From the NCBI GenBank assembly GCA_023374025.1, contig SIJG01000040.1, positions 856,871 to 920,870 of the forward strand: a DNA stretch of 64,000 bases, read 5' to 3'. Below the pieces are notes generated by a model. It was given only the letters and a program-made list of their open reading frames with translations. It did no database searches and was not told where the DNA came from. Position numbers and translations under genes: made by a program. This DNA is from Heterodera schachtii. Lineage: Eukaryota > Nematoda > Chromadorea > Rhabditida > Heteroderidae. This document shows, piece after piece, positions 28,681 through 50,071 of this stretch (position 1 is its first letter; each line of letters begins with the position of its first letter).

Positions 28681-31600
28681 TCATTTCATTCTTCTGGAAC
28701 TTGAACTTCGAAAAGATGTATTTAATTGTGGTCGGACCATTTGTCTGAGCTTATAGAAGAATGTCTGCAATAAAAGTAAAATAAATGAAAAAAAAGAGAA
28801 ATTTATTTTTGCTAAAAAATGAAATTTGGTTTTACAAAAAATTTACCAAACTTAATGAATTTCAAGAAAACCAATGTTTTCTTAGTTTTTTCAATCTTGA
28901 AATTTAACAAAAATAGGGTTCAAATTTATAAAAAAAAAACCTCGGAGAATATACTCACTCACTGACTAAATTTTATAGGAAAACCCGAGAACAGTACCAA
29001 TTTACTCTGATCCTATAGTTTTCTTAAAGATTTTTTTTTTTTTTTTTTGAATTTTCCACTTTTCATTATTATTATTTTTTCCTATATTTAAGCCAATTTT
29101 GATCCCCTATTTTTTTTTTTTTAGTTTTTTTCTGCACATTTTTGGCTTCTATTAATCAAGCAAAAATTTCAAAAAAAAAAAAAAAAAATTCGTTAAAATT
29201 TCTGAAAATAATCTTACTTTGAATTTTTTTTTATAATTTCCATTTAAATTTAAAGATTTTTCAATTTTTTGCATTTAAAATTTAAAGTTTTTTTTTTTCA
29301 ATTTTTTCCATTTAAAATTTAAAGTTTTTCAATTTTTGCATTTAAAAATCAAAGTTTTTTTCCAATTTTTTCATTTAAAATTTAAAGTTTTTTTTTTCAA
29401 TTTTTTCCATTTAAAATTTAAAGTTTTTCAATTTTTTGCATTTAAAAATTAAAGTTTTTTTCCAATTTTTTCCATTTAAATTTAAAGTTTTTCAATTTTT
29501 TGCATTTAAAAATTAAAGTTTTTTTCCAATTTTTCATTTAAAATTTAAGGTTTTTACCCAACTTTTCTATTTAAAATTTAAAGTTTTTTTCCAATTTTTT
29601 CATTTAAAATTTAAGGTTTTTACCCAATTTTTGCATTTAAAATTTAAAGTTTTTTTTTCCAATTTTTTCCATTTAAATTTAAAGTTTTTCAATTTTTTGC
29701 ATTTAAAAATTAAAGTTTTTTTCCAATTTTTCATTTAAAATTTAAGGTTTTTACCCAATTTTTGCATTTAAAATTTAAAGTTTTTCAACTATTATTTTTT
29801 TTTTCTCACATCTTTGTATGGAAAAGAATTAATGTTTTCCCATTGAATTGCATGTTGTGCTTCACCACTGATTTCATGAAACAATCTGTACTCATTTTGT
29901 TCGAGTTTTGCCAATTCTTCCTTTTCTTTTTCAAATTGTTTTTTCACTTTTGGATATATGCCAACAAATTTCAAATATTTTCCTGGAATTTTGCCAGTTT
30001 TATTGCGCAATTGCGATTCCGAGCCTTGAATTTTCAGTGAAGTTTTTTGTTGATCAGCATTCACAATTCTTATTCTTTGGCATTTTTGCTGAATAAATCA
30101 TATTTAAATTTAAATGGATTTTTTTATGGCACATAGTGAAAAAAGAATCTGGCAAAAATTTTGGAAAAAATTAAAAACTGGCAAATTTTTGACTATAAAA
30201 CAGCAACTCCTATAGCCGAAGCCAAAATAATGTGTCAAATCACCCGATTTTCTAGACAAAATTGGCATCCCTGTGCCCAACTCATTGCATGAAAATTAGA
30301 TGGAAATTTCGAAGAAAACAAATTTTTTTTTATTAGCTACCTATAGGCATGCTCGAGACCGAGACTCAACCCCGAGACCGAAAACCGCTGAGATCGAGAC
30401 AGAAAACCCTGAGATCGAGACCAACCAAAAAGGCCGAGACCCAAAAAAGCTGAGACCTTTTTTTATACAAAAATTTTCCTATTTCTTAAAATTGCTAAAA
30501 CTTTTTTTTTTTTTAGTTTTAAATTTTGATTCAATTAGCTGCCGCATTTATGCGCATGCGTTTTGCCGAACATGGCTTTATGGGTGTAAAAAAGTCTCGG
30601 TCTCGCGAGTCTCGAAAACCGAGACCGACACCCAAAAACCCGAGCGAAACTTTTCTCGACTTGCGCGACTCGAGACCGAGAGACTCTCGAGCAGAGAGCA
30701 AGCACTACGACTTACCAACATAACATTAATGACTTTCATTTTATTTGCAATAATGTTTTCAATTTGTGGTTCAGACAGATTTGGAAGTTTTGCTTTAGCA
30801 ATTTCTTCGTTTAATATATTCTCCAGTTTACGTATCACATTTTCCATTTCATCAACATTTTTTCTCCCTAAAATGGTCAAAAATTATAATTAATCATTTA
30901 TAAAAATATTATTTAATTACAAAAAATTTTTTTAAAGCGGAAAAAAATAGCAATAATTCAAATTTTTGCAAATTTTCCAATAAAATCACCCCAAAATTGT
31001 TTTTTTTTAAATATTCATGCCTTAAAAGTGTTTTTTTAATTTTTGCGCTGTAGAGCAAAAAAAAAAAAAAAAGGAATTTGTAGCCGGTTTTCTCAAAAAA
31101 TCTTCTTTTTTTACTAGGCCCCTGGGACCTAGGTATTACTGGACCTGGATTTTCCTATTTTATCCAGGAAATCCAGGTCGAGCAGGTCCAAACTCTGAAT
31201 CCAGGCCCAGGCTTTTTGACATTCTTCAAAATTTTGTTGATTCTCTAGTCAATAATACAATAATAATACATAATAATTTTGTTTAAAAATTATTTTTTGA
31301 TTTTAAACCCCCTGCTAATTTTCGAATTTCGCTGAAATAAGTCCTCAATTCCGCCTTCATAAACACTTCTTTTGCAAATTTGATTTCTTGCTCCATTAAT
31401 TCGAAATCTTCCAACAGTATTATTTTCTGATCACTTCTCAATTTGTTGACAGAATTTTTAATTTTTTCCATCGCATTTGCATATTTTTTTGTGCCATAAT
31501 TTTGTGGCACCAACACAGTCTGAAGATTCTGAAGAGCAAGCATTTTATTGGCACTTTCCGTGTTCACTGGCGTGGTGTTGGCACGTTCATTGGAGAAATT

Positions 31601-34600
31601 ATTGTTGTTAGCTAAAATGGAAAAATATTATTTTTAAAATAATAATTTAAAATTTATTAAATTTTAATTTAACTTAATAAGTTGGCAACGGATTTTGAAG
31701 CTTATTCTTAGAATTTTTGCTCAATTTCGGCGAACTGAGAACCATGAAAAATGCAATTCTGACTTGGTTAGAGACTTCAAAATCCAAAGTTTTCGTGCTT
31801 AATTTTGTTTTAATCGGAATTATTGCATAAAATAATTTGGCATTTGACGCACATTTTAACGCTTATTAGTAGGGCGTTGAATTATATGCACATGCATATT
31901 TTTTTCCTGGACTGTGGGAGGCCTGAAACGCATGAAAAACATGTTTTTAGCTTGATTAGAAGCATTTGAGCATTTTTTCAACAAAACCTCTATTAAAACG
32001 GCCCCTTCTATTAAAGCGGCCATTTGGGCCTCTAGTGACCGAAAATTTTCAAAATATCATTTTTTGGGTATTTTCTAACAAAAAATGTAACTTTTTAAAA
32101 AATTGGAAATTTATGCCAAAATAGTCAGAAAATAGAAAATTCTCCATTTTTTACTCAATTTTCTTCAAAATAATTAAATATTGGTTCTAAAATGATTATT
32201 CATAATATATTTAGCTATTTTCGAGATTTTTATCTTAAAATTTAACAAATTTGTAAATTTGCCCTCAATTTGGAAAAATTTATGTGCATATTTTTCACTT
32301 TTTATGTGCATATTTTGCAATTTTTGGTGCATATAATTCAACGCCCTACTTATTAGATGTTTTTTGAAAATTTTCTTAACAAAAATGTGTTTTTAAAATA
32401 AAAGGCCCAAAGAATGTAAGATTTATTCGAAAAATCATCCAACAACATTTTATTTTTTCTCTACCCAAATTTCGAAAGGTTTTTTTTTTTCATTTTCGAA
32501 ATTTTTTTTTGTTAGCTTTTCGTAATCAATTATTAAAAAAAGGAAATTCGGGTTTTCTGTAAGCGATAACATGTATCCCAATTTAAATGTTTGAATTATA
32601 AAAAATAAAAAACTTACACTGATTTGGTCGCACATTTGTTGACTGAGACCTTTTCAAGTTCGCTCTGCTGGTTATTGACGCTAAATTTAATTTTCGATTA
32701 AAATAATTTTTATTTATTATTTTTCCCTTAATTAAGACTAATTAACATTTGCATGCCTTTATTTGGATTAGCAGCATATGAGAATGAGGATGAGCCAGTT
32801 TCATAATTTGCTGAATTAAATTTAATAATTAAATTGTGAAAATTAAAAAAAATTATCATATTCTCCTACAATAAATTTATATCAACTATTTACTAAAAAT
32901 ATTTTCGGTTTTTTATTTATTTTATTTTTTTTAAATTACATCTGGCTGGTATTGTTGGTCGACTTGTCTGAGAAGAATAATGACCTCTATCCGTTGCTAA
33001 ACATTAAACAGTTAATTAGGTAGTTCATAATTATTAGGCTAGGCAATTTGGGGTCTGGCGGTTTCGAGATTTTTATTTATTATTTTTCCCTTAATTAAAA
33101 CCAATTAACAATTTGCATGCCTTTAATTGGATTAGCAGCATATGAGAATGAGGATGAGCCAGTTTCATAATTCGCTAAATTAATTTAGTAATTAAATTGT
33201 GAAATTTTTTTAAATTTTTGTCGTATGTCCATCGTGCAATTTAATTCAATTTTCAATTTTTATTTAATTATTTTCTAATTACATCTGGCTGGTGTAGTTG
33301 GTCGACATGTCTGAGAAGAATAATGACCTCTATCCATTGCTAAACATAAAACAGTTAATTAGTTGCTAATTATTAAGGATATGTTTTTTGGTTGGGCGGT
33401 GTCGAGAAAAACTTTTTGAGTTTTTTCTTCATTTTCTTAAGAAAATTTTCGCAAAATTGCGGAAACAGGTGCCCAAACTAACTTTTAGGTGTAAAACCCA
33501 TCAAATAGTATTTGTTTTGGTCGTAAAATGCTATCCGCAAAAAATAGGTATTGCAAAAACAAAAAATTCCGGGCTCTGATCATAAAAATTATTTGCCAAA
33601 AATATTGAATGTTTCCGATTCTAAATATACCTCAAATTTTTTAATTATTATAATTAGGTTTTGACTGTGATTTAGATGTGCATTTGTCATTTAATTTAGT
33701 CTAATTATCAAATTAATTTTTTTTTCTGCTTTTATTTTATTTAATTTGTCTTTCTAATTACATCTGGATGGTGTTGTTGGTCGACTTTTCTGAGAATGAT
33801 AATGACCTTGATCCATTGCTAAACAGTTAATTAAAACAGGATATATTTTTTTTTGTTGTCTTTCTTAATTGTTATTATTATTTATTAATTCAATCTATTT
33901 AATTTACATTTTCTTGATGGTGTCATTAATTCATCGGTTGTTTTAAACATGCGATGAAAATTTTCTAAAAAAAAGAATTTTTTATTCATTATTTTTAATA
34001 GCTTTTTTTTTTTCTTTCATTCCCTATTAAAATTGTTTTTTGGTTAAAAATTAAATTTTAATATTTAATTAAAATTGTTTTTTGGTTAAAAATTCCATTT
34101 AATATTTTATTAAATTGTTTTTTGGTTAAAAATTCAATTTTAATATTTAATTAAAATTGTTTTTAGCTTTTCTGAATTTGTTACCGATTTCTTCAGCTTG
34201 GAATTGGACGGAATTGTCAGAAGTAAATGGGCGAGAAGCATTAGCTTAAATTGTTTCCAAAGCTATTAATAATTTGTTCATTAATTTTTTTTCTTATTTT
34301 TATTTATGAAAATTTCTTTCGCAAAAATTTAAGACTATCAAAGAACTTATAATCAAAGAATTATCCGTCAGAAAATTTATTTGTTGGTTGGTCATTGGTC
34401 AAAAATTCTTGTTAAATAATTTTGTTAGTGAAATTTTTGTCGAGAAAATTTTTTTTTAAATTTAAAATTATGTAAAAAAAGAAATTTAAAAGAAAATTGA
34501 CGAATTTAATTTTAAATAAGCATTAAGTGATGAATTTTTTTAAATTAATTTGAAAACTATTAATATTTAAAATAAATATGTACATTTTCTGTGGTTATTG

Positions 34601-37539
34601 TTGTTGATGTCTTGTTGATCGGTTGCTGAAAAAGCAATTTAAATTATTATTATTATTTTTCCAATTAATTTATTTACAATCAAATGTTGATCGGAATGAT
34701 GGTGCTCTATTAAGGGTTGATGCCGCTTAAAATAATAAATTAAAATTCAAAAAAATAAAAATAACTATTATTAATTGTGCCAGATTTTCCGAATATTTCG
34801 TAAATTTAAAAATATTTTAATGACAACAAATTTTTAATAAAAATTGTTCTTAAAGCTTGTTCAGTTTTATTAATTTTGCCAAAAATGGAAGAAATATATC
34901 CGTTACAAATGTCCTATCCGTTACAAATGTCCAAGACTTTTAATTATCATTAATTATGAGTGATTAAAGTGTAATAATTGATTAATTTAATTGAACTTAA
35001 TAAAAATTTTTTTATCTCTATTTAAAATTTAAATTATTTTCTAATTACTTCTGGCTGGTGTTGTAGGTTGAAGTGTCTGAGAATGAGTTCGATCCACAGC
35101 TAAACATGAAAAGAGTGTCCATTTAAATAAACGGTTTATTTGGGGTAGACATCGGGGGATGGAATGGAATTCCATTTCCGATTTTGAAATTTTTTTGGGG
35201 GGCTCGGAATTCCAAAAATTTTTCAGGGCCTAGGAATTCCATCCCTAGCAGAGACAGGCAGGTTTTTTTTCGAGATTTCCATTCCTGTCCTATTCTGCAA
35301 AATTTCAGATTCCCATTCCCGCAATTCTTTATTTTGCCGACTATTAATTTGGGTCTAATTGGTTTAATTAGTAATTAAATATAATATTTATTTACATACA
35401 TTTTCTTGATGGTGTCATTAATTCATCAGTTGTAAACATACGATTTATATTTTCTATAAAAGGAAGAATTTTTTTTTTAATTTTTATTATTTTGTTTTAA
35501 CAAAATGTTTTTTGTCTTTATTTTAACAATAAATCTCCAAATTTCTTCACAAAAATACATAAACCATAATATATTTTATAAATTCTCACAAACAAATAAA
35601 ATTGAGATTTTTGAAATTAATAAATTTAAGCAATCTTTGATCTTATGAGTCTATAATTTTATTATTTTTGAATTTAAAATATAATAATTTACGATTCGTG
35701 GGAATTGCTGAATTGCTTCTCTGATAAGCTAAAGAAAGAAATAATAATTATTTTTTAAACATTTAAATATATAGCAATTACATTTTTTTGCGTTCATATC
35801 AGTCTGGGAAAAGTATGAGGAGGAGGAGGAGGTGGCATCCACAGCTTAAAAATGTTTTATTTTTTTTCATCAATTTTTAAACGAGAATTTCAAGGTATAA
35901 AAAAATAACATTTTTAACCTAAAATGGCGATTTCAATAAATGAAAGCTGTCAGGGCAGGTCATTTGGGCCCTATCGTTTTTCAAAAAAATAAAAATGTTA
36001 CAGCTAGAAAATCACAAAAATTCCGCAATTTTTTGTTAGCTTTAGCTTCATCTTTTTTGTGTTAACTAAGGAAGAGTATTTTGCGTTTTCTAAGCTTAAA
36101 AGCTCTTGGGCGGCTTTCGTTGATACCTAGTTTAAAATTTTGATCAACTAATTAATGTTTCGGCCCTTTAAATTCCGGGCCTAAACGTCCTGGTCCCCGG
36201 GCCTCAGGTTTGAATTTTCAGAGTCAAATCTCGGAACTAATCTAGAAACAATTACATTTTCTATGGTTATAGTTGGATGAGTTGTGCTCATTAATGGCGG
36301 CTTAATTAGGGGAAAAAGCAATTACAATTGTTTAGTTCAATTAACTGTGTGTTACATTCATATGCTGTGCGCTGAAAAGATGTTGCCGATTGTGAGAATG
36401 ACCTATTAAGACGGGTTGATGCTTTTGCTATAAATAAATAAATACAATTTTAAACATACAAATCATTATTTTTATCATAATTAGCAATTAAAATTTTTAA
36501 TTTGTTTTATAATTATTACATTGATTTATCAGCAACAATTTATTGCATTCCTTATATAGACCGTCAACGACTAAAAAATAATTATTTATTACAATATTAG
36601 AAAATAGGTCTTATCCGGTCATTTATTGTTTCATAGATTATTCAAAAAATTGAAATGTTTGAAGGATTTTTTTTTTGCATATTTTTATGCAAATTTTCCA
36701 TCAATATTTTTAAAAAATTGTCAGAAGAAAAAACAAATTTTAGATGAAATTATTGGCGCTACTGTAAAAGTGACCTATTTTGAAAAATTTTTCACTTTTT
36801 TTTTGGTGAAAATTTTTTTTTTTTGTTTGTTTTGATACAGAATTTGTTTTAATCGTGAATATACTTTTTTCGCCAAATTATGCACAATGCTTAATGTGTT
36901 CATCATTCTATATCAAAACAAAAAAAAAAAAATTTTTTTTGACCAAAAAAAAGTGAAAAATTTTTCAAAATTGGTCACTTTTACAGTAGCGCCAAATAAT
37001 CCTTCTCTCTTTTTTTTTAAATTCCGACTTAATTTTGACAAAATTTGATCATCCCAAACTGTCTTTAAAGTGATCAAAAAGCTCATAAAATTGTAAAGGA
37101 AGAATATAGGTGGTGGCCAAAGAGATGCTTTAAACAAAAAAAAATGGATCAATGAAAATTTACGATTACGAAAATCCCCGACTAAAATTTGTCGGGGGAT
37201 GGTCCGTGAAAAATCTAAAAAATCCCAAACCAAAATTGTATGAACTTTACCTTGGAATGCTTGTTTGGCTAATTTCACCATTTTTTCGTCATTTCCATAT
37301 TTGTCGGGGTGAAATTTTAAAAGTTCAAACTTCAAAAATCTTTCCCATTTTTCTTTCTCCGGAGGACATTTCAAAATTTGGCAAAGCATCACCAACTGTT
37401 CACTGCGCTTTTTGTTTTGTTCTGGGATTTTGACGATTTTTTGCATTTCATCCAATTGGCCCTGCGGCGACATTGTGGTCGCAACAAAAAGTGTTGAGAT
37501 GACCATGAAAAATGGCACCACAAAAATTGTCGAAAACAT
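28681..37539 (-). CDS. Secreted J-domain micro-exon protein, paralog A, 22 exons
   Basis: Predicted secreted protein of about 675 residues. Exon 1 (37539-37251) encodes a signal peptide (MFSTIFVVPFFMVISTLFVA) and a divergent J-domain: LCQILKCP as helix I, a basic helix II, HPDK at about residues 77-80, then helix III. Seventeen micro-exons follow: 36570-36520, 36427-36356, 36300-36256, 35844-35782, 35728-35693, 35453-35400, 35099-35049, 34725-34678, 34625-34584, 34244-34185, 33964-33908, 33818-33762, 33339-33283, 33174-33121, 32996-32940, 32810-32757, 32680-32618. Each is 36-72 nt, divisible by three and phase 1-1, coding Ser/Thr/Arg-rich peptides. C-terminal helical exons: 31611-31309, 30867-30716, 30088-29810 and 28764-28681 (stop). 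All joints keep frame; two introns need GC donors. J-domains normally stimulate Hsp70 ATPase; a secreted form could target a host or extracellular Hsp70 (inference). Paralog of 50071-43300. Splicing choices need RNA evidence. Confidence 0.8.
29230..29780. repeat. AT-rich tandem repeat in an intron of J-domain paralog A
   Basis: About 15 imperfect copies of a 30-35-bp unit, CATTTAAAATTTAAAGTTTT followed by TTTCCAATTTTT, within the last intron. The array ends just before the exon at 30088-29810. Confidence 0.8.
30330..30705. repeat. GAGACCGAG-rich insertion in an intron of paralog A
   Basis: The left block (30345-30460) repeats GAGACCGA and GAGATCGAGAC. The right block (30595-30700) carries the inverted form AGTCTCGGTCTCGCG and more GAGACCGAG. 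It looks like an inserted element with inverted, internally repetitive arms. It produces a 197-codon plus-strand frame that is not considered a gene. Confidence 0.55.
31870..32348. mobile_element. hAT-like MITE, 479 bp, in an intron of paralog A
   Basis: Terminal inverted repeats TAGGGCGTTGAATTATATGC and GCATATAATTCAACGCCCTA are flanked by a perfect 8-bp duplication CTTATTAG (31862-31869 and 32349-32356). There is no coding capacity. It sits in the intron between the last micro-exon and the first helical exon. Confidence 0.9.
32618..36570 (-). repeat. Micro-exon array with block duplications (paralog A)
   Basis: The 17 micro-exons fall into recurring types. Type a: TRLNRSFSQS, TLNRAPSFRS. 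Type b: NYNHRK, NNNNHRK. Type c: DATSSSSSYFSQ, NYETGSSSFSYAANP. Type d: YQRSNSAIP and SNASRPFTSD (tentative). Type e: MFTTDELMTPSRK, MFKTTDELMTPSRK. Type f: DRTHSQTLQPTTPAR, DRGHYSSQTSRPTIPAR. Type g: RANLKRSQSTNVRP. Their 5'->3' order is a-b-c-d-e-f, a-b-d-e-f, f-c, f-c, g, after a first unique exon. The two f-c pairs (33339-33121 and 32996-32757) are near-identical including intron sequence, so duplication was recent and included introns. Confidence 0.75.
34020..34170. repeat. AT-rich tandem repeat in a paralog A intron
   Basis: Three to four copies of a roughly 50-bp unit, TTGTTTTTTGGTTAAAAATT followed by AAATTTTAATATTTAATTAAA, in the intron next to the exon at 34244-34185. Confidence 0.7.
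36755..36993. mobile_element. MITE-like inverted repeat in intron 1 of paralog A
   Basis: Ends GGCGCTACTGTAAAAGTGAC and GTCACTTTTACAGTAGCGCC are inverted repeats, continued inward by AAAAATTTTTCACTTTTTT and its complement. The total is about 240 bp. The flanks do not give a clean target-site duplication. Confidence 0.7.
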
Positions 37540-39533
37540 TCTCAGCAGAACGCTTAATTTTTTTTGAAAGGGGAGAGAATTTATCGTATTTCTTCTATTA
37601 CAGGTCCATCCCCCCCCCCCTCCTTTAGAGCCACCCCACATTAGGGTTACGAATTACGCAATAACGTTTTTGGCTTCCGTCATAACGGGTTACGGATTTT
37701 TTTTGAAAGCCCTCCACAATACGCATTGTCCGTAATTGAAATCCAGTTACTTCTAACAACATTGATCCTCCTAACTTAAAATTACACTTTATATCCAAGA
37801 CATTATCCTAATTGGCAATAATCCCTGGCAAACTTAAAAAAATGCCTTGGTGGAGTGGCGGAATTATTAATAATTTTACGTTTTTGGCACTAAAAATTGA
37901 AAATGCGCAACCTAATTAGGTGAATTTTTGCGAATAATATTGCCATTTACCTAAATCCATTCCTATACATTACATTTGATAGAAATGTAGCGAATTTCAT
38001 AAAAACATTATAATGTGAAAGAAATATAATTTTATTATATGCACATATTAAGAGAAAAATTGCCATTCCTTGAATTTATTGAATGGAATAATTGATTTAT
38101 ATTTTTTCTCATTATAATGAATAAATTAATTTTATTTCTTTTTTTTATATTAATTAATTTATTAAGAAATTTGGAAATTTATAGATTCGAATGATAAGTT
38201 TGCTCAAGATTTACTAAATTTTTTAATATAGCCCTAAATGTTTTGTATTATTAGCCTGAATGATTACAAAAATTGCATTAACTTTCAAAAAAGTTTTGAC
38301 TAGGGCTGGGAATTTTATGTAAGAAAAATCGCGAAATATGTAAATAAAATATGTATAAAAAATGCTAAAATATGTATGAAATATATAAAATATGTAAATA
38401 ACATTTTTTAAATGGTTATTTTTTTGATAAAAATTCTTCGTAAAAAGTGAAACAGAAGCATAAAATACCATAAAAATGACCAAAATTGGCTTAGAATCAC
38501 ATTTTAGTATTTCAAAAATTAATTTTTGATAGTCACTTTTTGAAAAAAAAAAATTGATTTTTTAGGGATACATTTTCATAAAAAAATTTTTAAATTTTTC
38601 ACAAAAAATTTTATAAATTCTCAAAATCCTCAAAATATGTAAAAAAAAAAAAATGAAAATATGTACGAAAAATTGCGAAATATGTACGAAAAAGTCCAAT
38701 ATATGTATAAAAATATGTACATATGTAATATGTAGAAAAACCCGAAAATATGTAAAAATATGTAAATAAAAGTCCCAACTTTTGTTCGCAAACACAAAAA
38801 AGAAAGTGTTTTTCCTACTAATTAGGCTATGGAGAATCCAGGAAAAAATATGTATTTACATAAAATTCCCAGCCCTACTTATGACTATAAGAACTTAAAA
38901 AATCACATTTTTAAATTATTTTCGGTCATAATTTTTGTTTTTTGAAAAACTAACGAAATTTTTTTGAATTTTTGCATGCTAATAGAGAACAAATAGGGCT
39001 ATTTAAATTTGAATTTAATCAAGAATGAAAAATAAGGATGCTTTTAAGCAAGGTTAGAAACAAAAAAAAAATTTGGATTTGATTGTTTTTCGAGGAACGC
39101 CCATTTTTATGGGTTTTGAGTAAGTTTATAGCATCATTAAAAATATAATTAGGCTAGAGCATAAATTTTTATTAACTGGGTAAAAGAAGGAATGCCTTAA
39201 AAATGGAAAATTTATATGGGGTTTCAGAAAAAAATTTGGAGGAGGCACAAAATGGTGGTTCAATTGGTTCCCAGACAATCCGTCAATAATTGGACAATCT
39301 GTCAGTGGACATTCAGTCAGTAAAATGTTTAATTAAAAGCACATTTTAAATAAAATTATATGAAAGTGACTGTAAATTATTTGTGGATTAAATGCCAATT
39401 AAAAAAAAGAAAAAAAAACGTTTTATAAATTATCAACGATAAAAAACAAATCTTCGAATATGATTAAAGAAAATTATCGGCTTAAAATTCAGAATTTCCT
39501 CTTTTTTTATAATTTTCCAATATATTTATCCTA
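37540..39533. other. Intergenic between the HTH gene and J-domain paralog A
   Basis: It holds the promoter region of the J-domain gene, a GTTACG-type inverted patch at about 37640-37720, the inverted-repeat element at 38301-38877, and the 3' flank of the HTH gene. Part of that flank (about 39130-39530) is duplicated at about 41650-42280. No other gene is seen. Confidence 0.5.
38301..38877. mobile_element. Inverted-repeat element with internal ATATGTA repeats
   Basis: Termini TAGGGCTGGGAATTTTATGT and ACATAAAATTCCCAGCCCTA are inverted repeats of 20 or more bp. The interior is full of AAATATGTA repeats. Flanking octamers GTTTTGAC and CTTATGAC match at six of eight positions, so an old hAT-type insertion is possible. 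The TAGGG start is shared with the element at 31870-32348. Confidence 0.7.
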
Positions 39534-40730
39534 TCAAAATTTCTTTGCTTCGCCCATTAATTTGGATTTGTATTTCTGTAATGAGCTTATTGAAATTTCC
39601 AATTTTGCCGCAATTTGGCGATCAGTGATCTTTGGATTTTGGTTTTTCATCTGATCATATTTCTTCATCATTTCCATTTTCTCAGCAATTGTGAAAACTT
39701 TTCGCTCTTAAAATATTCATAATTGAATAAGTAAATTCAAAAAATTAAAAATGCTAAAAAATAATTAAATTTGACCTTTTGTAACATTTTGTTTAATGCC
39801 AATTTTCTTGGCCCATCTTTCTATCTTCTTAAAATTCACACCAAAAATTTGTTTAATTTTTGCATAAAATTCTTCCCATTCCTTCCGTGAATGTTTTGCC
39901 ATTTGCATAAATTCATTTTTTATTTTTAAATATTTTTCAACAATTTCTCTTTTTTCATCATCAATTTGTTGGTTTTGCACCAATTTTCCATTTTTTAATT
40001 GTTTCTTCCATAAATAAATACTTCTAATATTTATGCCCAAATGTTTTGCTATTATTTTTTGACATTTTTTCCTTTTTCCCTCCAATTTTTCATTTAATTT
40101 GATTTTTATTTTGTCATATAATTGATCAAATTGTTTTAATATTTCACATTTTTCTTCATCCGAATATTTTTTTACATTATTTAGTCCAAATTCTCTTTTC
40201 CATTTATAAATTTTCTCCCGATTGACTCCCAATTTTTTTGCGATTTTTCTTTCAATTTTCGTACATTCTTTTGTTGAATATTTCTTTCCAATTTGCTTAA
40301 TTTTCTCTTTTATTTTAATAAATTTTTCCACAATTTCCCTTTTATTTTTACCAATTGTATTTGAAAATTTATCAGAAATTTGTTCATTATTTTTTGGCAT
40401 TGTCAATTGGCCGCCAAATTCATCATAATTTGTTGACATTTCTTCACTCTCCTCTTCTTTCACTTCCAAATTTTCATCAAATATTTGATCAAATTGTGGT
40501 GCCAATATTTTCGACTCACTTTTTGTCTTATTTTTGTCGTCATTTTGTCTTTGTCCAATTGTTCCGTTTTGATCAGTTTGACCCATTCCATTTTCCTCAA
40601 CATTTTTCTCCCATCCATCGCCAAATATTTGATCAAATCCTTTCGATTGTTTCATTTTCACTGACACAGTTTGATCAATTGTATTTTTGATCATCAATAG
40701 GCATAATAGTAATAATATTTCAATTTTCAT
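39534..40730 (-). CDS. Secreted tandem helix-turn-helix-like protein, copy A, 2 exons
   Basis: Exons 40730-39776 and 39706-39534 join in phase 1 (donor GTCAAA, acceptor AAG) into 375 residues. A signal peptide lies at the start (MKIEILLLLCLLMIKNTIDQ). Residues 30-125 are acidic and carry FDQIF twice. Four related modules follow at about 129-184, 190-247, 259-315 and 320-375. Each has a long basic or acidic helix and a compact unit of the form IAKxxGxNxxxIxxWK, a helix-turn-helix with a conserved Trp in the first three modules. The last module, encoded by exon 2, ends with RQIAAKLEISISSLQKYKSK. HTH units like these occur in transposases and DNA-binding proteins. A secreted Lys-rich protein with four could be a nucleus-targeted effector (inference). 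It lies upstream of J-domain paralog A on the same strand. Paralog of 54430-55636. Confidence 0.8.
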
Positions 40731-42281
40731 ATTTTTGTGAAAAATAAAGCGATTATTAAATGATTTTAAATGTAAAAATTTTAATGTTTGTATAAATTCT
40801 GTAAAAATGAATAATAATTTATTGCATTTATTTGGTTTTGCCTATGAAAAATCGGCCAGTAGAAAAATTTAATGAAAACATTAATCAGCATCAATAAAAA
40901 AAAGCTATTCTACTGATCAGTAGAATAAATAATTTTTATTTTATAAAAATGTTTAAAAATAAAATAATAATAAATTTATAAGTTTGGCGAACCCTTTCAA
41001 TTTCGAATTGCTAAACACAATGACAAATAAAATGTTTTCAAAATTTGTGTTTTGTTTACCCATTTATTGCACCTGAAACCCGGCATTTTCCCGGTTTTTG
41101 CAGATGCCGAGCTTTTGGGGTCCATGTTTCTGAATAGAGGAGGTTCCTAAAAATTTTCCAGTACAACACTTGAAAGGAAAACCCTTGAAAAAGGCAAGCA
41201 GAATCAATTACAAGAAATGTCTCCAAAATAATTTTTCCAGTACATGCTTTATAATAGTACTTGTCCTATAAAATCATGTAAGAATTGTTTTCGTTGTCCA
41301 CTTTTGATACCAACAAATATTATTAAATTGTTAGAGATAGAGAGGAACTCAAATTTGGTGGTCTCTGCCCTTTTTGTATTAGGGATATGTCGTCGATTTA
41401 TCTGATTTCGACCCTTTTGAAGAAATTCCGATTTCCGATTGCCAAAATTTTTTGAAAAACGTCGGCACATTTCTCGGTTTGGCATCCTTTCTCATTGCAG
41501 CCCATTTCTGTTTAATTATTTTTAATTGTTGTACCTTTTCCTTCACACTGCTGAAGCATTCATTCAATTTTAGCATTAGCCAATTGATTAGATGGGGAAG
41601 CCCTTGCTTTTAAGCAAAAGTTTTATGCAAAAAAAAAGCATTATTTTTTTTGAATAAAAGAATTTTAAAGTTAAGTTTATATGGAGTTTCAAAAAAAAAA
41701 AAATTTAGAGAGGGCATTGGCATAAAAAGGGCATTATATTGGGTCCCAGCAGAAATCAAAATTGTTGCCACTGGACCTTCCGTCAGCAAAATTTTTTATT
41801 TAAAAGCACAATTTTATATAAAATTTTGCAAAAATGAAATGAATTTAATTTAAAACTACAGCTTATTCGACAGTACTGAGTTTGATTGTTTTTTAATGAA
41901 TAAAAAAAATTGAAAATTTAGGCATTTTTGGGCCCCCGATATTATTTACGTAATTATAAAATAAATTTAAAATTATCGCTTATTCCCCAACACTTTTAGT
42001 GTTGTTTATTACCATTTAAAATAGTTTGGTAGCAAAGGTCTGATCACATGATGATGGTTAATGCTCACAATCAACAACATTTTTTGATTTTGCATTGAAA
42101 ATCAATTAGAGAAAAATTTAAAAAATATTTGTGGAATTAAATGCCAATAAAAAATAGAAAAAACGAGTTTTATAAATTATCAACGATAAAAAAAAACATT
42201 TTTTGAATACGATTAAAGAAAATATCACTTCTAAATTCAGATTCTCTATTTTTGATAATTTTCTAATTCAATATATCCCTA
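40731..42281. other. Intergenic, partly a duplicated 3' flank
   Basis: The segment about 41640-42281 resembles 39000-39533 (for example TTATAAATTATCAACGATAA and the TTAAAAGCACA block). It therefore arose by duplication of the HTH gene's 3' end. A minus-strand frame at 41576-41379 (starting MLKLNECFSSVKEKVQQLK) is basic and helix-like but has no splice context. It may be an old fragment. Confidence 0.45.
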
Positions 42282-42454
42282 TCAAAGTTTCTTTGCTTCG
42301 CCCATTAATTCGGATTTGTATTTCTGTAATGAGCTAATTGGAATTCCTAATTTTGCCGCAATTTGTCGATCGGTGAGCTTTGGATTTTGTTTTTTCATCT
42401 GATGATATTGCTTCATCATTTCCATTTTCTCAGCAATTGTGAAAACTTTTCTCT
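42282..42454 (-). pseudogene. Orphan last exon of an HTH protein gene
   Basis: The 173-nt segment has exactly the length, acceptor (TTAAG) and phase of exon 2 in both HTH genes. It reads without interruption through RQIAAKLGIPISSLQKYKSE to a stop. No matching first exon was found upstream before the J-domain paralog B gene (ends 43300). It is either a remnant of a tandem duplication or an unrecognised alternative last exon. The intact frame suggests the duplication is recent or the exon is still used. Confidence 0.7.
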
Positions 42455-43299
42455 CTTAAAATATTTATAATTTGGATAAGTAATTTCAGAAAAATTAAAA
42501 AATGGCAAAAAAATGATTTGTTCATTTATTATTAGTGCCTGGAAATTTCAAATTTGATGAATCCTGCGCGGGATTGCTGGCTTTTTTGAGTTGTGAAAAT
42601 TTTATTTTTGGCTAAAAAATAATTTTTACAAAAAACAAAAGTGTGACTGAAATTTGCTGCGATTTTTTTTTAGCAGATTTTGGCTTAAAAATGACCAAAA
42701 AGCAGCTTCCAGCAGAACTCCTTGCAATTGAAAAATTAAAAATAATGATTAGGTTTTAGGCCGGCAGTGCCAATAGAAATTTTTATATGAATTTTGCGAT
42801 GAAAAATGTTTTAAAAATTAAGAATTTACTGTAAAATTATTTCAAAAATTTTTGTGAATTTAAAGAAAAAATGGAATTTACACAATTTTTTTTTTGTTTT
42901 ATTTACTAAGTATATTTCATAATTTTATGTAGAATTGCCAATAGTCACTTGGTAAATTATAATTAAATCCTTTAAAAAAATTACTTATTTCACAAGGTTG
43001 ATGATATTAATAGAGTTTATTTAAAATTTGGTTTTTAAATTAAAAAAAAAATCCGGTGAAAAATTTGAGAAAATTCGTAACTGTAACCCTATCTCAATGA
43101 ATTTTTTTTTAATAATTTACTAATTTTTAAATTTCTATAATTAAAATAGCTTAAATAATCACATAAAATCGCCGTTTTCGTGTTTTTATCAACAATTAAA
43201 ATAAGTACAATCGATCAAAAATTTATCTTTTAAAAATCACCAATTTTCATACTTAAAAAAATTATGAGGATAAAAATCATACAAAAAATAAAACTTCAA
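42455..43299. other. Intergenic, nothing recognised
   Basis: AT-rich sequence between the 3' end of J-domain paralog B and the orphan HTH exon. No motif, gene or repeat with defined ends is seen. Confidence 0.5.
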
Positions 43300-46200
43300 T
43301 TAATATTTTCTTGTACTTGCATTCTTTTTCAAAGTAATTGTTATTGATAATGTTTTGATCTGATCGAAGAGTTTCTGTAACAGAAAAAAAATAAATGAAA
43401 AATTATTTAAAAAATAAAAAATAATTTTAGCACTTTTTTTGACCCACAGAATCACTAACAGAGATGGACCGTCCTTGAAACAAAATCCTAAAGGAAATGG
43501 ACCGTCCTTAAATTTAAGGACGCCATTAAAATATTTTGTTTTTATTGTTTTCATCAAAATTTAGCACTAAACCATATAGTTTTTAGCACACAAAATGACA
43601 TAATGGAGCGCCCTTGAATTCAAGGACGCAACATTTGGTATGGAGAAACAAGTTGGTAACTTATAAATGTCCTTTTGAAAGACATTATTGGGAAGTAACC
43701 ATTCTTCGCAAGTACACCCATGTTAAAAAAGGATTTTTTTCAAAATTCCACAAGTAATTCCCAAGGACGGCATTGAATTCAAGGAACTTGGCACCAGGGA
43801 TGGCATTCCGAGACCCCAAAAAATTCGGAAGTCGGAATTCCGAGGCAAAAAATTTTCGGAAGTCGGAATTCCTTGACATCCCTGCTTGGCATCACCGTTT
43901 AAATAATTATTTTTAATGGAATCGCGCCAATTTTCATTTTTCTCCCCCCAAAAAAATTCCAAATTAAATTTAAAAAAAAATTTGTTTTTCCCTAAATTTT
44001 CGTCGTCACCTTTGTGCATGGCAATATGAGATTCCTCAAATTAAATTGTGTTGTTTCCGCTGCACTTTTAATTTCTCGAAACAGTTGCTGCTCTTTTTGT
44101 TCCAATGATTTTAATTCATCGGTCAAATTTGCCAATTTTTTTTTAATTTTTGAATTTCCGCCAATTAATTTGCTAAAACTTGACATTTTGCTCTTTTTGC
44201 TTGTGTTTTGTGCCTGTGCCTGTGTGTTTTCTGCTTTCTTACGACGAATGTCGTCAATTTGATGACATTTTTCCTAAAAAAAAATTTTTTGTTTTAATAT
44301 TTTTTAAAAAAATTTAAAGAAAAATATTTTTAAAAAAAATTTAAAGAGCCTCCAAAAGTGGAAAAAAATAATTGCAAAACCCCAAAAAAAATGTCATAAT
44401 AATCAGTATGGCAATTTTTTGGTGAAAATTGCTTAATATGAATATAAAAATCTTTTCCCGCCGCCCATAAAAATACTATTCTCTTAAAAATTGAGTCAAA
44501 GTCGCAAAAATTTTGTCATTTTTTTAGTGTAAATTTACGCCAATTTTTTTTTGAAAAAATGCGCAGTAAAAATGGGTTTGAAAAGCAAAAAAGGTCGATT
44601 TACATGGCTTGATATAATTCTAAGCTAAAATATAAAAAAATTTTTCGAATTCTTAATCAAAATTTCAAAACTTTTTGAAAAAAGCCCGGTCCCGGCGGGC
44701 GCCCGGTCAAAATTTTGGACCGCGCCCGGGGCGCCCGGTAAAACGGGCTTTTTTTTTTTTGAACGGGCGGCCCGGTCCCGGTAAAATGGCTAAGCCCGGT
44801 CCCGGGCCCGGTCCCGGTACTTTCAAAATTCCGGTCTCTAATATATATATTCCCAAAAACTACAAAAATATGTATTGCCAAAAAATGGGTTTAAACAACA
44901 AAAAAAAATGCAAAAAATTTAATAAAATCCAAAATTGACGTAAAAATAATAATAATAAAAAAAATGGCTTTTAAGCCCAACAAAAATGCCAAAATAGGGA
45001 ATAAAAATCAAAGAAAGTTTGAGTTGAAAAATTAAATATGTAATTACTAAAAGTAGTGATGTTTTTATTAATTAAAAAATCTGATTTTTTTCTCGCAAAT
45101 TTTGGCGAGTAGACAATTACCACAAAAGTTATAGTATGAAAATTGCGAAAAACTCAAAATTTTAAGTTTTTTCTTAATAACTTTTCAATTTGTTAGAAAA
45201 TTTTTATGCTTTTTGTATGACGGATAAAGCTTGTGAAAAGCTTTCGAATGATACCAAAATGGTTAGAATTGGTCGACAAAGAAAAAAAGTTAGATCATAT
45301 AATGAAAAACTCGGGCTGGCGCCGAAACGTCTGTGCCAAAATGTCGGTGCCGAAACGGCCCATTCCCGTTGAAAAGTGTAAAATTTTTGCCCAAAAAATA
45401 GCTGGCAAAGAAATTGATTATAAAAAATTAACCAACCAACAAAGCATTGATTTTTTCAACAGTAATTTTTTCAATTTCTTCAACAGCAAATTTATTTTTG
45501 TCAAATTCTCTACGAATTTGTTCGTGAATATTTGCCATTAATGTGAGTAACGCTACTTCAGTTGCTCCGATATCTTTCGCCACTAAAAAAAAAAAAATTA
45601 AATAATTTTATTTAAATATTTATTTTTTTATTTTTTAACCTATCCAAATATGGGCATTTTTTAGTGCACAGAATAATCGAATTGAAATTTGAATGTTTTC
45701 CCCGAGGCTCGAGACCGACTGATATTTTTCAAAAAAAAAAAAAAAATGTTTCTTACACAATTTTAAAAATTTACGAAAATGTTTGTGGCAAAAAAATACG
45801 GACCGGGACGACTGGGCGCCGGCCAACTGGGCTCCAGCCTGGTTGTTGGAGCATAACTCTTTTCATAGTTGTCCGAATTGGATAAATTTAAGAGCATTCG
45901 ATAGCCCTATGTATTCTCTATTAGCATGCAAAAAATCGAAAAATTTCATTAAGTTTCAGAAAAATTATGGCCAAAAATTTTCGGAAAACCCAGTTTGTCT
46001 AGTTTTTTTGGCCATAATTTTTCTGAAACTTAATGAAATTTTTCGATTTTTTGCATACTAATAGAGAATACATAGGGCTATCGAATGCCATTAAATTTAT
46101 TCAATTCGGACATCTATGAAAAGAGTTATGCTCCAAAAACCAGGCTGGCGCCCAGTTGGCCGGCGCCCAGTCGACCCCCACCGAAAAAATACCCAATTTT

Positions 46201-49200
46201 TGAAAGTTTTCCTACAAATTTTGGCCTTTACTAATTTTGATTCAATTCTTTTATTTTATTTATTTTTTGCCTTTTTTGGCATTTTCGTGTTTTCATGCCT
46301 TTTTGGGCGTTTTTTTTTTTCCGAAAAATTCCATTAAAAATGCAATAAATTTGGGAAAATAGACCCCTAAAAATTTCAGAAAATACACCCCTAAGAATTA
46401 AAAAAGTTTTCTCAAAAATTGATCGCCAAAATTTAATTTTAATCATTTAAAGGACCAACATTAAGTTTTTTGATTAAGTTTTACGTGTTTTGCTCCCTAA
46501 AAATCCTTAATAAAAAATTTTAAATGCCTTTTTTCATGCCTTTTCGGGATTTTCTTGCCTTTTTTTTTCAATTTTTTGGTGCCTATTATAGTGCCCTTTT
46601 TCGCGATTTTGAGTGCCTGCCTTTTTCGTCGGTCTCTATTTATTAATGATCAAATTTTTCATTTAATTATAAAAATTATTAATCAATTTAAAACGCAGCA
46701 CCTGCTCCTTTTTTAATTGCGTTGAAATCACGTTTTAATTTCTCTTTCATTAACACCTCCCTTACAAATTGGACCTCTTGCTTCATCAAATCAAAAAGTG
46801 CCAACATTTCTTCCCGTTCATTTTTCCCCCTATAAACTGTTTCGATAAAAATTGGAATATTTGCTGTCGCTTCGGCATATTTTTCTTTGTCTGTCAACTC
46901 CTTTTCATAATTGAGGATTTTTCTGATGCTTTCTTGATTCATTGGACCACGTCCGGTGGACAAATTATTGCTGGCTAAAATAAATTTAAAATTTTCATAA
47001 ATTTGGGCCTCATTTATTTTTTAAAAATTTCCTTATTTCATAAAAAAGAACAAGCGGGGGTTTTTTCAACCCTTTACTAGAAGGGAGGGGGCTTTATTTC
47101 AGGGGGGGGCTTTATTTCAGGGGGGCTTTATTTCAGGGGGCTTTATTTCAGGGGGGGGGGGGCTTTATTTCAGGGGGGGCTTTATTTCAGGGGGGAGGGC
47201 CTTTGTTTTTCGGAAATACGGGCTTCATTGAAATTGAAATACAATTTTTTGTTAAAAGCAGATATTTGGAAAATTTAATTGATTTACATTAGCGAATAAG
47301 TCCAATATGAAAATTTTCGTGAATTTCTTGGAGTTTTTCTGGGGGCAATTTCAAAATATCATAAACACCCCGTAAAAATGGGAAATCAGGGTCTTCTGAA
47401 AATAAATTTTAAATGTTTTTAGAATTACAAGTGTCTGGTCGAACAGCTGTTGACTGTGATCTTTTCAAGTTCACTCTGCTGCTGGGTGTTGCTAAATTAA
47501 TTTTGGTTTAATTTTTTTTATTTCCTTAATTAGGACTAATTTTTATAATAATTGCCATTGTCTAATTATTATAATTAATTGCTTTTATCTAATTATTATA
47601 ATTAATTGTCTTTTTCTAATTATCATAATTTATTGTCTTATTTAATTATCATAATTAATTGCCTTTATCTAATTATCATAATTCATTGTCTTTATCTAAT
47701 TAACTAATAAATTGATTTTTAATTGCCTTTATTTTAATTAATGTCTTTATCTAATTATTATCGTTAATTGACTTTATCTAATTAATTAATTGACTTAATC
47801 TAATTATTATAATTACTGCCTTTATCTATTTATCATAATTCATTGTCTTTATCTAATTAAATCGATTTTATCGAATTAATTCATTGCCTTTATTTTAATT
47901 ATTATCTAATTAATTAATTGACTTAATCTATTTATTATATTAACTGCCTTTATCTAATTATCATAATTAATTGCCTTTATTTGGCTTAGCACTAGATGAG
48001 GTTGAACCAGCGTCATAAGTCGCTAAATTTTAAATTGATTAAATTTGAGATTGTGACCCAAAAGCTTTTGCCGGACCGTGTTTGTGGGACTAATCCGCAA
48101 AATCCCGAAATTTCAAAAAACAATGCGGGATTTCTGATTAGGACCCCGCAAAATGCGGCGCGGAACCCTGTTTCGGGTCTGTCTCTCCTCTAAAATTCTT
48201 TTTTCTATTTTATAAAAATTTCCGTTATTTTTTTTTTCAACTTTTTGTGAAAATTTACTCCCTTTCTCCCCGAGATTTTTTAAATTTCTCAAGCTATCTC
48301 CGACAAAATTTGTGCGGAATTTCCTCCCCAATTTGTCTTTTTCCCCGAGGGTCGGCGCTTAACCCCCTAAACTTAATTAATTGATTATTAATTTATTTTT
48401 TCATTTACATTTCGTTGAGCTTCTTGTTGAATAGTTTCGCCTTAAATCGGGTCCTGTCGTAGCTAAAAAAAATAATAATATTTATTTATTTATTTGTTTT
48501 TAATTTGTAATATACCGTATTTCCTAAAATACAGCCCCCCCCCCCCCTAAAATAAGGCCCCCTTTTGAGAAGGGGTTAAAAAATAAGCCCCCGGGGGCTC
48601 CATTTTAGGAAATATGGTAATACCATACCTTTTTTTGTACTCATATCAGTTTTTTGAAAAGAAGAGGATGATGCATCGTAAGCTATAAAAAAATTTTTTT
48701 TTAATTTTTTCATAATTTATTTATAATTTAAATAATTTTTACATTTCCGGTGATTATAAATGTCTTCTTGATCGGTTGCTTAATTGGTAAAATTAAAAAA
48801 TAATTAATAATTATTTTTGTGGTACAACCATATGTTCTTCTGCTGCCGAAAGATCGGAATGATGATGCTGATGAGTATGAACGATCAAGTCTTGCAGTTG
48901 CTATTGACAACAATTTTAATTAGCCTCATTAAAATTAATTAAAAATTAAAGTTTAATTAAAAAACCATAAAATATATTTTTATTGAATAAAACAAAAATT
49001 TAAAATTTAATGAAAAAACAAAAACTAAAATTCAATGAATAAAACAAAAATTTAAAATTTAATGAAAAAACAAAAACTAAAATTCAATGAATAAAACAAA
49101 AATTTAAAATTAATGAATAAATTATTACTTTGTTGTCCAGCCTCAAACTTCAACAATCGATTGCACCTTTCTTTATAAAAGGTAACTACTAAAAAAAAGT

Positions 49201-50071
49201 TATAATTTATCATAATTACATTTAAGGCAATCAATTTACAAATTTTTCGAAAAATAAAATTAATTTCAAGTTTTTGCGTTATCCGCAAAACGCCACAAAA
49301 CCCCCCCCCCCCATATTGAAGGGCTAAGAGGCTAATAGAGAAACTTAGAATTGCATAACAAATTCCTGTAAAATTGCCAAAATAATATGTTATATTTATA
49401 TTAAGGATCATTTCAGTTTTGGTCTCTCTACATTGAAATTTTTAAATTGCAAAATTGGAGAGAAAAGTGGAAATTCCCGGACAAAAACAAGACCTAACCA
49501 CTTCAAAAAAAAAAGAACGAAATTTTCAAGATTAATTGCTAGACCGCTTAAAATACTCTGAATAAAACAAGGAATGTTTTTAAAGCTTGCTTTTTAGGGC
49601 TTTTTAGGGCGTTTTTCCCATTTTTACTGCATATTTTCAGTCAGGAGTTTATGATGGCCTAAAGCCTATCATTTTTTTTTTTTTTGCCATTTTTTAGTGT
49701 CAAAAAAAAGTTCGCCCCCAAAAAGTGTGCCCTCCCTCAATCGTGTTCCGTTTACCTCTGGATGCCCTTGTCGCTAAGTCGATCAGTTCCGATTTGTTCA
49801 ATTCCGGCACCTTCGCTTTGTCCGGATGAATTTTTACCAATGACTTCAACAAATATTTTTGCCATTCCTCCTCCTTTCCATCGGGACATTTCAGTATTTG
49901 GCAAAGTTGCCTGAGGCCATTCAATCGTTCTTGTCTGTCATTGGTTTCAATTTTGATTTTGCCAATTTGTTGCAACAATTTGGTTGTCACAATTAGTTCT
50001 TGCGCAGCAGCAATGGCAATTGATGAAATTGTTATGCATAATAATAGGGCGACTACAAATTGTAACAACAT
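43300..50071 (-). CDS. Secreted J-domain micro-exon protein, paralog B, 12 exons
   Basis: Exons: 50071-49756; micro-exons 49188-49129, 48900-48829, 48778-48743, 48682-48629, 48462-48409, 48022-47975, 47491-47429; then 46974-46702, 45582-45437, 44273-44010 and 43374-43300 (stop); 486 residues, all phases consistent. Exon 1 gives a signal peptide (MLLQFVVALLLCITISSIAI) and a divergent J-domain with LCQILKCPDGK and IHPDK (His at about residue 81). Micro-exons are phase 1-1 and match those of paralog A in order: unique (YKERCNRLLK), a (TARLDRSYSS), b (IYNHRK), c (YDASSSSFQKTDMSTKK), d-like (RRNYSTRSSTK), c (TYDAGSTSSS), g (RVNLKRSQSTAVRP). The C-terminal exons pair one to one with paralog A, with moderate identity and conserved junctions. 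One intron needs a GC donor (47974). The micro-exon set is smaller, so A has expanded or B has lost cassettes. Role as for paralog A: secreted co-chaperone-like protein, inferred. Confidence 0.8.
43590..43890. repeat. Repeat-derived sequence in the last intron of paralog B
   Basis: It contains short direct and inverted copies of CCTTGAATTCAAGGACG and GGAATTCCGA-type motifs. These recur in other introns and intergenic tracts, for example near 35170-35240 and 59130-59200. Ends are undefined. Confidence 0.4.
44680..44825. repeat. GC-rich CCCGGTCCCGG repeat in a paralog B intron
   Basis: An abrupt GC island of repeated CCCGGTCCCGG and GGGCGCCCGG motifs, with inverted copies, inside otherwise AT-rich intron. 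Both strands are open by composition (frames at 44657-44938). No gene is indicated. Confidence 0.7.
45809..46173. mobile_element. Near-perfect palindromic foldback element, 365 bp
   Basis: The left arm starts CGACTGGGCGCCGGCCAACT. The right arm ends GTTGGCCGGCGCCCAGTCG. Arms of about 170 bp each are almost exact reverse complements through TTTTCATAG, GCATTCGATAGCCCTATGTA and AATTATGGCCAAAAA, leaving a short central loop. It lies in an intron of paralog B. Its transcript would form a long hairpin. Confidence 0.85.
47040..47230. repeat. GGGGGCTTTATTTCA tandem repeat in a paralog B intron
   Basis: Six to seven copies of a 17-22-bp unit, GGGGGGCTTTATTTCAG, with variable G-run length. The unit resembles the interior of the nearby short element at 48513-48619 (TAAAATAAGGCCCCC read in reverse), so it may be an expansion of element-derived sequence. 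Confidence 0.75.
47288..47395 (-). pseudogene. Truncated J-domain-like symmetric exon inside paralog B
   Basis: A 108-nt segment with acceptor TTTTCAG and donor GTAAAT has the same phase 1-1 symmetry as the micro-exons. It encodes LRGVYDILKLPPEK, resembling helix I of the J-domain in exon 1 (LRQLCQILKCPDGK). It ends in an in-frame TAA just before the donor. Joining it to the preceding micro-exon (47491-47429) also creates TAA at the junction, whereas joining to 48022-47975 gives Glu. It is either a decayed J-domain exon or an alternative truncating exon. Confidence 0.5.
47530..47985. repeat. AT-rich tandem repeat in a paralog B intron
   Basis: Many imperfect copies of a 20-30-bp unit, TAATTGCCTTTATCTAATTA with TTATAAT variants, fill the intron between the micro-exons at 48022-47975 and 47491-47429. 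Confidence 0.8.
48513..48619. mobile_element. Short palindromic MITE, 107 bp, in a paralog B intron
   Basis: Ends TACCGTATTTCCTAAAATAC and CATTTTAGGAAATATGGTA are imperfect inverted repeats with TA outer bases. The interior carries C-run and AAGGCCCCC segments. It ends ten bases from the micro-exon boundary at 48629, so it was inserted close to a splice donor without destroying it. Confidence 0.75.

Follow-up and report, generated by a model that had tools for sequence, protein, structure and literature searches.

How does a gene come to be built largely of exons that are a few dozen nucleotides long and all of one phase, and what might its protein do? The question is raised by two genes on the minus strand, A (37539-28681) and B (50071-43300), in a window of 64,000 nucleotides of Heterodera schachtii DNA (the window is the whole stretch analyzed, and positions are counted along it). 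A first-pass annotation had described them as a pair of paralogs for secreted proteins that combine a divergent J-domain with a series of small symmetric exons. Open frames, GT/GC-AG splice sites, and the homology between A and B indicate that they are indeed intact paralogous genes. With confidence a little above even, we read them as members of a small secreted J-like family in which a disordered linker would evolve by gain, loss, and duplication of cassettes. In the predicted proteins, a signal-like N-terminus is followed by what would be a divergent J-like helical hairpin with an HPD motif, encoded across exons 1 and 2. Next comes a middle made of phase 1-1 cassettes of 12-25 codons, rich in Ser, Thr, Arg, and Asn, for which disorder is assumed from composition alone, and then a C-terminal region encoded by four exons.

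The model of gene A has 22 predicted exons and encodes 675 amino acids (aa), and that of gene B has 12 and encodes 487 aa. Each closes in frame with its sole stop at the end, as had been claimed. The 32 introns of the two genes are GT-AG (29) or GC-AG (three). Exon 1 ends in phase 1 in both genes, and all 24 small internal exons are divisible by three and start at codon position 2. Thus, A exons 2-18 (17/17; 36-72 nucleotides, nt) and B exons 2-8 (7/7; 36-75 nt) are phase 1-1, in agreement with the first-pass annotation. The size range that it gave for both genes, 36-72 nt, holds for A and fails for B, since B exon 3 is 75 nt long. Each gene ends with four C-terminal exons, whose phases are identical between A and B; in this respect, the description of four matching C-terminal exons, there taken to be helical, stands. 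The residue formed at the phase-1 joins is Ser or Ala in 20 of 28 cases, and the GC content is 40-41% in the cassette exons vs 23-26% in the intervening introns. A exon 4 (36300-36256), which is homologous to A10 and B4, was detected by a scan with relaxed acceptor rules; a stricter scan gave 21 exons. The last intron of gene A holds an A/T-rich tandem-like repeat (29220-29780).

Predicted exons of gene A:
37251..37539, minus strand: exon 1, hydrophobic N-terminus and J-like region with HPDK, ends in phase 1
36520..36570, minus strand: exon 2, 51 nt, phase 1-1, J-like region continued; matches B2, aligned with exon 2 of genes C and D (see below)
36356..36427, minus strand: exon 3, cassette, 72 nt, RLNRS type; matches B3 and A9
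36256..36300, minus strand: exon 4, cassette, 45 nt, NHRK type; matches A10 and B4
35782..35844, minus strand: exon 5, cassette, 63 nt, S-run/TDM type; matches B5
35693..35728, minus strand: exon 6, cassette, 36 nt
35400..35453, minus strand: exon 7, cassette, 54 nt, DELMTPSRK type; matches A12
35049..35099, minus strand: exon 8, cassette, 51 nt, PTTPAR type; matches A13
34678..34725, minus strand: exon 9, cassette, 48 nt, RLNRS type; matches A3
34584..34625, minus strand: exon 10, cassette, 42 nt, NHRK type; matches A4 and B4
34185..34244, minus strand: exon 11, cassette, 60 nt; without significant partner
33908..33964, minus strand: exon 12, cassette, 57 nt, DELMTPSRK type; matches A7
33762..33818, minus strand: exon 13, cassette, 57 nt, PTTPAR type; matches A8 and A14
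33283..33339, minus strand: exon 14, cassette, 57 nt, PTTPAR type; opens the duplicated pair 14-15/16-17
33121..33174, minus strand: exon 15, cassette, 54 nt, NYETGSSS type, GC donor
32940..32996, minus strand: exon 16, cassette, 57 nt, duplicate of exon 14
32757..32810, minus strand: exon 17, cassette, 54 nt, duplicate of exon 15, GC donor; matches B7
32618..32680, minus strand: exon 18, cassette, 63 nt, NLKRSQST type; matches B8
31309..31611, minus strand: exon 19, first C-terminal exon, homologous to B9
30716..30867, minus strand: exon 20, C-terminal
29810..30088, minus strand: exon 21, C-terminal
28681..28764, minus strand: exon 22, C-terminal, stop, without KDEL-like end

Predicted exons of gene B:
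49756..50071, minus strand: exon 1, hydrophobic N-terminus and J-like region with HPDK, ends in phase 1
49129..49188, minus strand: exon 2, 60 nt, phase 1-1, J-like region continued; matches A2
48826..48900, minus strand: exon 3, cassette, 75 nt, RLNRS type; matches A3
48743..48778, minus strand: exon 4, cassette, 36 nt, NHRK type; matches A10 and A4
48629..48682, minus strand: exon 5, cassette, 54 nt, S-run/TDM type; matches A5
48409..48462, minus strand: exon 6, cassette, 54 nt; without clear match in A
47975..48022, minus strand: exon 7, cassette, 48 nt, GC donor; top score to A17
47429..47491, minus strand: exon 8, cassette, 63 nt, NLKRSQST type; matches A18
46702..46974, minus strand: exon 9, first C-terminal exon, homologous to A19
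45437..45582, minus strand: exon 10, C-terminal
44010..44273, minus strand: exon 11, C-terminal
43300..43374, minus strand: exon 12, C-terminal, stop

Arrays of this kind were compared with chance by counting chains of candidate phase 1-1 exons that do not overlap, measure 33-78 nt, and have a T-rich acceptor together with a GTA donor. Over the A array, 14 such exons are chained in the best 5-kilobase (kb) interval, vs a mean of 1.4 and a maximum of 4 in 246 control intervals of the same length. The controls were taken on both strands of 13 fetched regions (11 chosen for J-domain hits and two flanking the window), which are not a random genome sample; the rest of the 64-kb window was scored besides (203 intervals) and likewise has a maximum of 4. 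Across 300 dinucleotide shuffles, the zone of the A array, with 13 observed, never exceeds 4, and the zone of the B array (2 kb), with 4 observed, never exceeds 3. The A array is far beyond chance. For B, the count is a point on the other side of the scale, as a chain of 4 is also reached by some 5-kb control intervals; the B exons therefore rest chiefly on their homology to A.

The J-like head and the second gene pair

Are A and B alone in the genome? Searches covered 178,491,932 bases in 356 contigs. A search at E ≤ 1 with a 660-residue A query that lacks exon 4 yielded 24 matches. The window accounts for 20 of these and contig C63 for two, and C10 and C1 have a single match apiece. The last two are weak (E 0.126 and 0.878, respectively), each contains a stop, and neither was counted as a member. 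Contig C63 carries, on the plus strand, two tandem genes, C and D, that have the head and the phases in common with A and B. Exon 1 of C and D (334 and 337 nt) has a hydrophobic start and HPDK and ends in phase 1; it is followed by phase 1-1 exons of 45 and 51 nt in C and of 45 and 48 nt in D, and by a C-terminal exon that begins in phase 1. A further 48-nt exon is a candidate in D (C63:371916-371963). With C exon 1 as the query, A (E 2.7e-6; 41% identity), B (E 0.023; 39% identity), and D were found, and no other locus at E ≤ 1. Hence, the family has at least four loci in two tandem pairs, as searched with full-length A rather than full-length B.

Between C and D, exon 1 is 94% identical, with nonsynonymous (dN) and synonymous (dS) divergences of 0.052 and 0.13, and the C-terminal exon has a dN of 0.37 and a dS of 0.72. 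Identity is 80% in exon 2 and 67% in exon 3, next to 85% in intron 1 and 80% in intron 2, and the small exons of C and D look like fast-changing sequence, on few sites. When exon 2 alone is aligned across the four genes, two columns are invariant; the homology of this exon between the pairs therefore rests on its place and phase. Pieces of the D C-terminal exon match only D and C at E ≤ 1. By hhalign, the C/D C-terminal exon aligns with A19/B9 in one register over 48 columns (probability 19.5%; E 0.0012 for a single comparison), which weakly favors a C-terminal region common to the family; homology of these exons is suggestive only.

The head provides the link to J-domains. HPDK is invariant in A, B, C, and D, and the joined exon 1-2 heads of the four members have 15 invariant columns including HPDK. 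A profile of the joined heads matched 20 sequences in the PDB, and 16 of these are J-domain chains by name (best J-domain E 0.0088), a count that includes KIAA0730, HCG3, and F9E10.5, which we take to be J-domain chains. These J matches span up to 44 profile positions and reach into exon 2, so exon 2 seems to be part of the head and not a free cassette. The profile of exon 1 alone gave nine sequences at E ≤ 10, seven of them J-domain chains (best J-domain E 0.32). Three column-shuffled profiles in which HPDK was kept gave fewer J matches (2/6, 1/3, and 0/1), all of them to large T antigens, which have a J domain; the flanks of HPDK therefore matter. Moreover, alignment of the head profile with nine J domains of the same genome by hhalign gave a probability of 89% over 23 columns. 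In AlphaFold models of exon 1 alone, which are weak (predicted local distance difference test scores, pLDDT, of 59.5 and 62.3), helices flank HPD.

A number of results pull the other way. Pfam DnaJ has no match in A and B at E ≤ 1, a genome-wide PF00226 search (42 matches) lists no place on contig C40, three exon-1 heads have no match at E ≤ 5, and just one of the four joined heads matches it (E 0.013). The top PDB match of the exon 1 profile is a non-J protein (E 0.042), and the joined profile ranks the non-J repeat protein RPB_PLP3_R6 first (E 1.4e-5, or 1.1e-6 with HPDK masked). When HPDK is masked, none of the five PDB matches is a J chain, and HPDK is therefore indispensable to the match. 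Searches with the weak exon 1 models returned no significant fold match and no J-domain chain among 35 Foldseek and 11 VIA-align rows.

On this balance, a divergent J-domain, as first proposed, is moderately supported as the likeliest reading of the head and is not established: the HPDK motif and profile matches in excess of the shuffled controls favor it, and the missing Pfam matches in A and B and the effect of masking do not. The strongest competitor holds that HPDK is incidental and that the head is an unrelated, lineage-specific helical domain of a secreted or surface protein that has a cassette linker and no Hsp70 role. It would account for the Pfam blanks in A and B, for the loss of J matches without HPDK, and for the absence of a J fold from the lists obtained with the low-confidence exon 1 models. 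Yet HPDK has stayed invariant across four paralogs, and the J matches extend well beyond it, into exon 2, and exceed those of the three shuffled controls. We see the incidental motif as a minority possibility.

Multi-copy J hits on C153, C26, C236, C11, C42, C99, and C261 were rejected as family members: LCxxLKC was not seen by eye in a J exon of their type, and the one such exon tested matches Pfam DnaJ (E 3e-10). These contigs hold a second J-domain exon family with a WLCV...HPDKN pattern, in several copies on C153.

Growth of the cassette arrays

How did the arrays of A and B come to differ in length? Exons were compared by residue shuffling (119 pairs, 500 shuffles each), for which the floor is p 0.002 and about one nominal chance hit is expected. 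Six of the seven small B exons have a partner in A, the one without being B6. The pairs B2-A2, B3-A3, B4-A10, B5-A5, and B8-A18 reach the floor; B4-A4 has p 0.006, and B7-A17 has p 0.004 and the top score in the B7 row, in which A18 likewise reaches 0.002. The partners are collinear in the two genes provided that B4 pairs with A4 and not with A10. A differing cassette order in A and B had been considered and was dropped once A exon 4 was identified.

Gene A also carries internal duplications: exons 3, 4, 7, and 8 reappear as 9, 10, 12, and 13, and exons 14-15 reappear as 16-17. A5 has no significant counterpart in A11 (p 0.39), A15 (p 0.10), or A17 (p 0.08). In six of the seven duplicated pairs, exon DNA is more alike than both 60-base intron flanks. 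For A14/16, A15/17, and A7/12, 53/57, 52/54, and 49/54 bases are identical, with flanks at 68-88%; unrelated intron pairs have a mean identity of 59% and a maximum of 77%. After exon 2, modeled cassettes number 16 in A, six in B, and one each in C and D, a small natural series on array growth. The first-pass proposal of diversification by cassettes is supported as regards duplication, by these differing counts and by the modules that recur in A. Since every cassette starts and ends in phase 1, duplication, loss, or skipping keeps the frame.

Selection on the cassettes is less clear, and two observations here count against our reading. In A3/A9, the remaining pair, the exon is 79% alike vs 86% for the following intron. 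The duplicated A cassettes also have nonsynonymous and synonymous differences in nearly equal proportion (pN 0.11, pS 0.10), on few sites; constraint at the protein level is not proven by these values, which are compatible with diversification.

The same symmetry of the cassettes, all of them phase 1-1 and divisible by three, would allow each gene to produce many isoforms by frequent cassette splicing, as in the micro-exon genes (MEGs) of schistosomes. Effectors of cyst nematodes are described as undergoing alternative splicing (PMC5802810), which also speaks for it. However, repeated exon duplication alone yields symmetry. Extensive isoform production, which is compatible with our preferred reading, is in our view rather doubtful.

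Probable secretion and neighboring genes

Where would the proteins go? The best mean hydropathy over 19 residues lies at the N-terminus and is 2.25 in A and 2.62 in B, with later maxima of 0.48 and 1.16, respectively. As the hydrophobic N-termini have no comparable later segment and A and B lack a KDEL-like C-terminal end, secretion is the expected fate. In the 500 bp before each of the four genes, neither strand contains the DOG box (ATGCCA), a result that sits less well with an effector and speaks against the usual mode of control in the dorsal gland. This box is reported for 77% of 101 dorsal gland effectors of Globodera rostochiensis (PMC4901422); as this is not all of them, gland expression is compatible with its absence.

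Proteins of the endoplasmic reticulum (ER) have to be considered too, since ER J-proteins have the same layout, with a signal-like N-terminus and a J head. In this scenario, the A and B products would be co-chaperones of BiP in the ER lumen of gland or other secretory cells, and the cassettes a near-neutral spacer derived from tandem duplication, as the similar pN and pS of the duplicates and the lack of a DOG box would allow. We consider it improbable: no KDEL-like end would retain the proteins, exon DNA has stayed closer than both flanks in six of seven duplicated pairs, and A and B cassettes are recognizable still, despite an overall protein identity of 39%. That the gene models are an artefact of chance open stretches or pseudogenes is very hard to credit, for although the B chain count alone lies within the control range, A chains 14 exons vs at most 4 in controls, each model has one, terminal stop, A and B have homologous exons, and both head and phases recur at C and D.

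Other genes in the window also look secreted. One intact gene with a single open reading frame (ORF) lies between A and B (39765-40730, minus strand) and another past B (54430-55410, plus strand); their products of 321 and 326 aa have signal-like starts and repeated helix-turn-helix (HTH) motifs. The first passes the Pfam cut-off for HTH_Tnp_1, HTH_28, HTH_23, and others, and the second for HTH_28. A genome search for such multi-HTH genes (E ≤ 1e-3; 124 of 2640 candidates scored) gave at least 147 matches, at times several per locus, many of them on C5, C6, C34, C36, and C40; some are open and many have stops. By these matches, the neighbors look like part of a very large secreted-looking family. 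Protein-database searches gave no match for B (E ≤ 0.01; the 7992 best candidates scored) or for a neighboring HTH protein (E ≤ 0.001). Because the HTH family has so many genome matches, these blanks say little on absence, and the protein database may hold few such nematodes. A Ser/Thr-rich ORF with a signal-like start near B (53124-53477, plus strand) possibly encodes a mucin-like secreted protein. Finally, an ORF at 66-809 (plus strand) is a near-perfect tandem repeat with the unit MHVKGNCYRRTKRIVISRFLGVQ and probably reflects a tandem DNA repeat.

Comparison with known systems

If the family is a secreted J-like one whose linker evolves by cassettes, how might it work, and what does it resemble? 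With the exons spliced as modeled, the protein would leave the nematode, probably as a parasitism (effector-type) protein. Its J-like head would, judging from HPD, recruit Hsp70, and the variable, probably disordered middle would determine the binding partners, as in HopI1. We tentatively extend this to an independent nematode system of cassette-exon effectors, in which a secreted Hsp70-recruiting head and a C-terminal body surround an open-ended phase-1 array that explores client- or host-binding combinations; this is possible, and we do not put it higher.

HopI1 of Pseudomonas syringae, a bacterial type III effector, is likewise secreted by a plant parasite and joins a J-domain to repeats (PMC4617103). 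Its J-domain is described as binding plant Hsp70, and its disordered repeats as needed for virulence and not for Hsp70 binding (PMC4617103). If the J-like head is functional, A and B would be a eukaryotic counterpart of HopI1, in a species whose host is a model plant. Secreted DnaJ proteins of Meloidogyne arenaria are similar in their Ser-rich repeats; they were found as DnaJ proteins, and no cassette exons are mentioned for them or for HopI1, the word "exon" being absent from the M. arenaria paper (PMC6802931). The HYP effectors of Globodera are also secreted by a cyst nematode and have conserved ends and a variable motif middle (PMC11228951). The variable domain of HYPs is contained in a single exon and differs among alleles (PMC11228951), whereas in A and B every motif has an exon to itself; HYP-like genes are reported for H. 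schachtii too (PMC11228951). Among the literature matches listed, which leave subscription papers and supplements outside their scope, none describes a gene family with micro-exons or cassette exons from a nematode that parasitizes plants, and the four genes may well sit unnamed in published annotation.

As to gene architecture, the first-pass annotation had drawn the parallel with schistosome MEGs. These have a long 5′ exon with the signal, long flanks, central small exons that are mostly symmetric, and secreted products (PMC4671649, PMC4350168), a layout that A and B, with their signal-like start in exon 1, would have in common with them. The design logic and symmetry of the parallel therefore hold, and the sizes do not: MEG micro-exons, which make up most of the central coding part, are described as smaller than 36 bp (PMC4671649) and the proteins are mostly small, unlike the 36-75 nt exons and predicted proteins of 487-675 aa found here. 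A and B differ further in having a J-like head and a long C-terminal region. According to a 2015 paper, MEGs are apparently restricted to platyhelminths (PMC4350168). The small exons of MEGs are easily missed by gene finders (PMC4671649), and more genes of the present kind may therefore be hidden.

In our comparison, the bicycle and KQY genes of aphids are at least as close a precedent as the MEGs. Bicycle genes, described as fast-evolving and as encoding putative plant-gall effectors, have many small internal exons, nearly all of which start at codon position 2, i.e., in phase 1 (PMC9168663). Their proteins have CYC motifs and form a large aphid family, and the likeness to A and B is one of design. 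The KQY/KHI cassette effectors of the pea aphid have a common secretory-signal region and divergent parts encoded by miniature exons, and isoforms are reported there (PMC7495047). In KQY1a, however, 33 of 37 exons are at most 15 bp long, and the conserved part of KQY is the signal region (PMC7495047), unlike in A and B. Secreted genes with small symmetric exons are thus known from flatworms and aphids; the nematode case would add to these and point to a recurrent route to variable proteins at the host interface.

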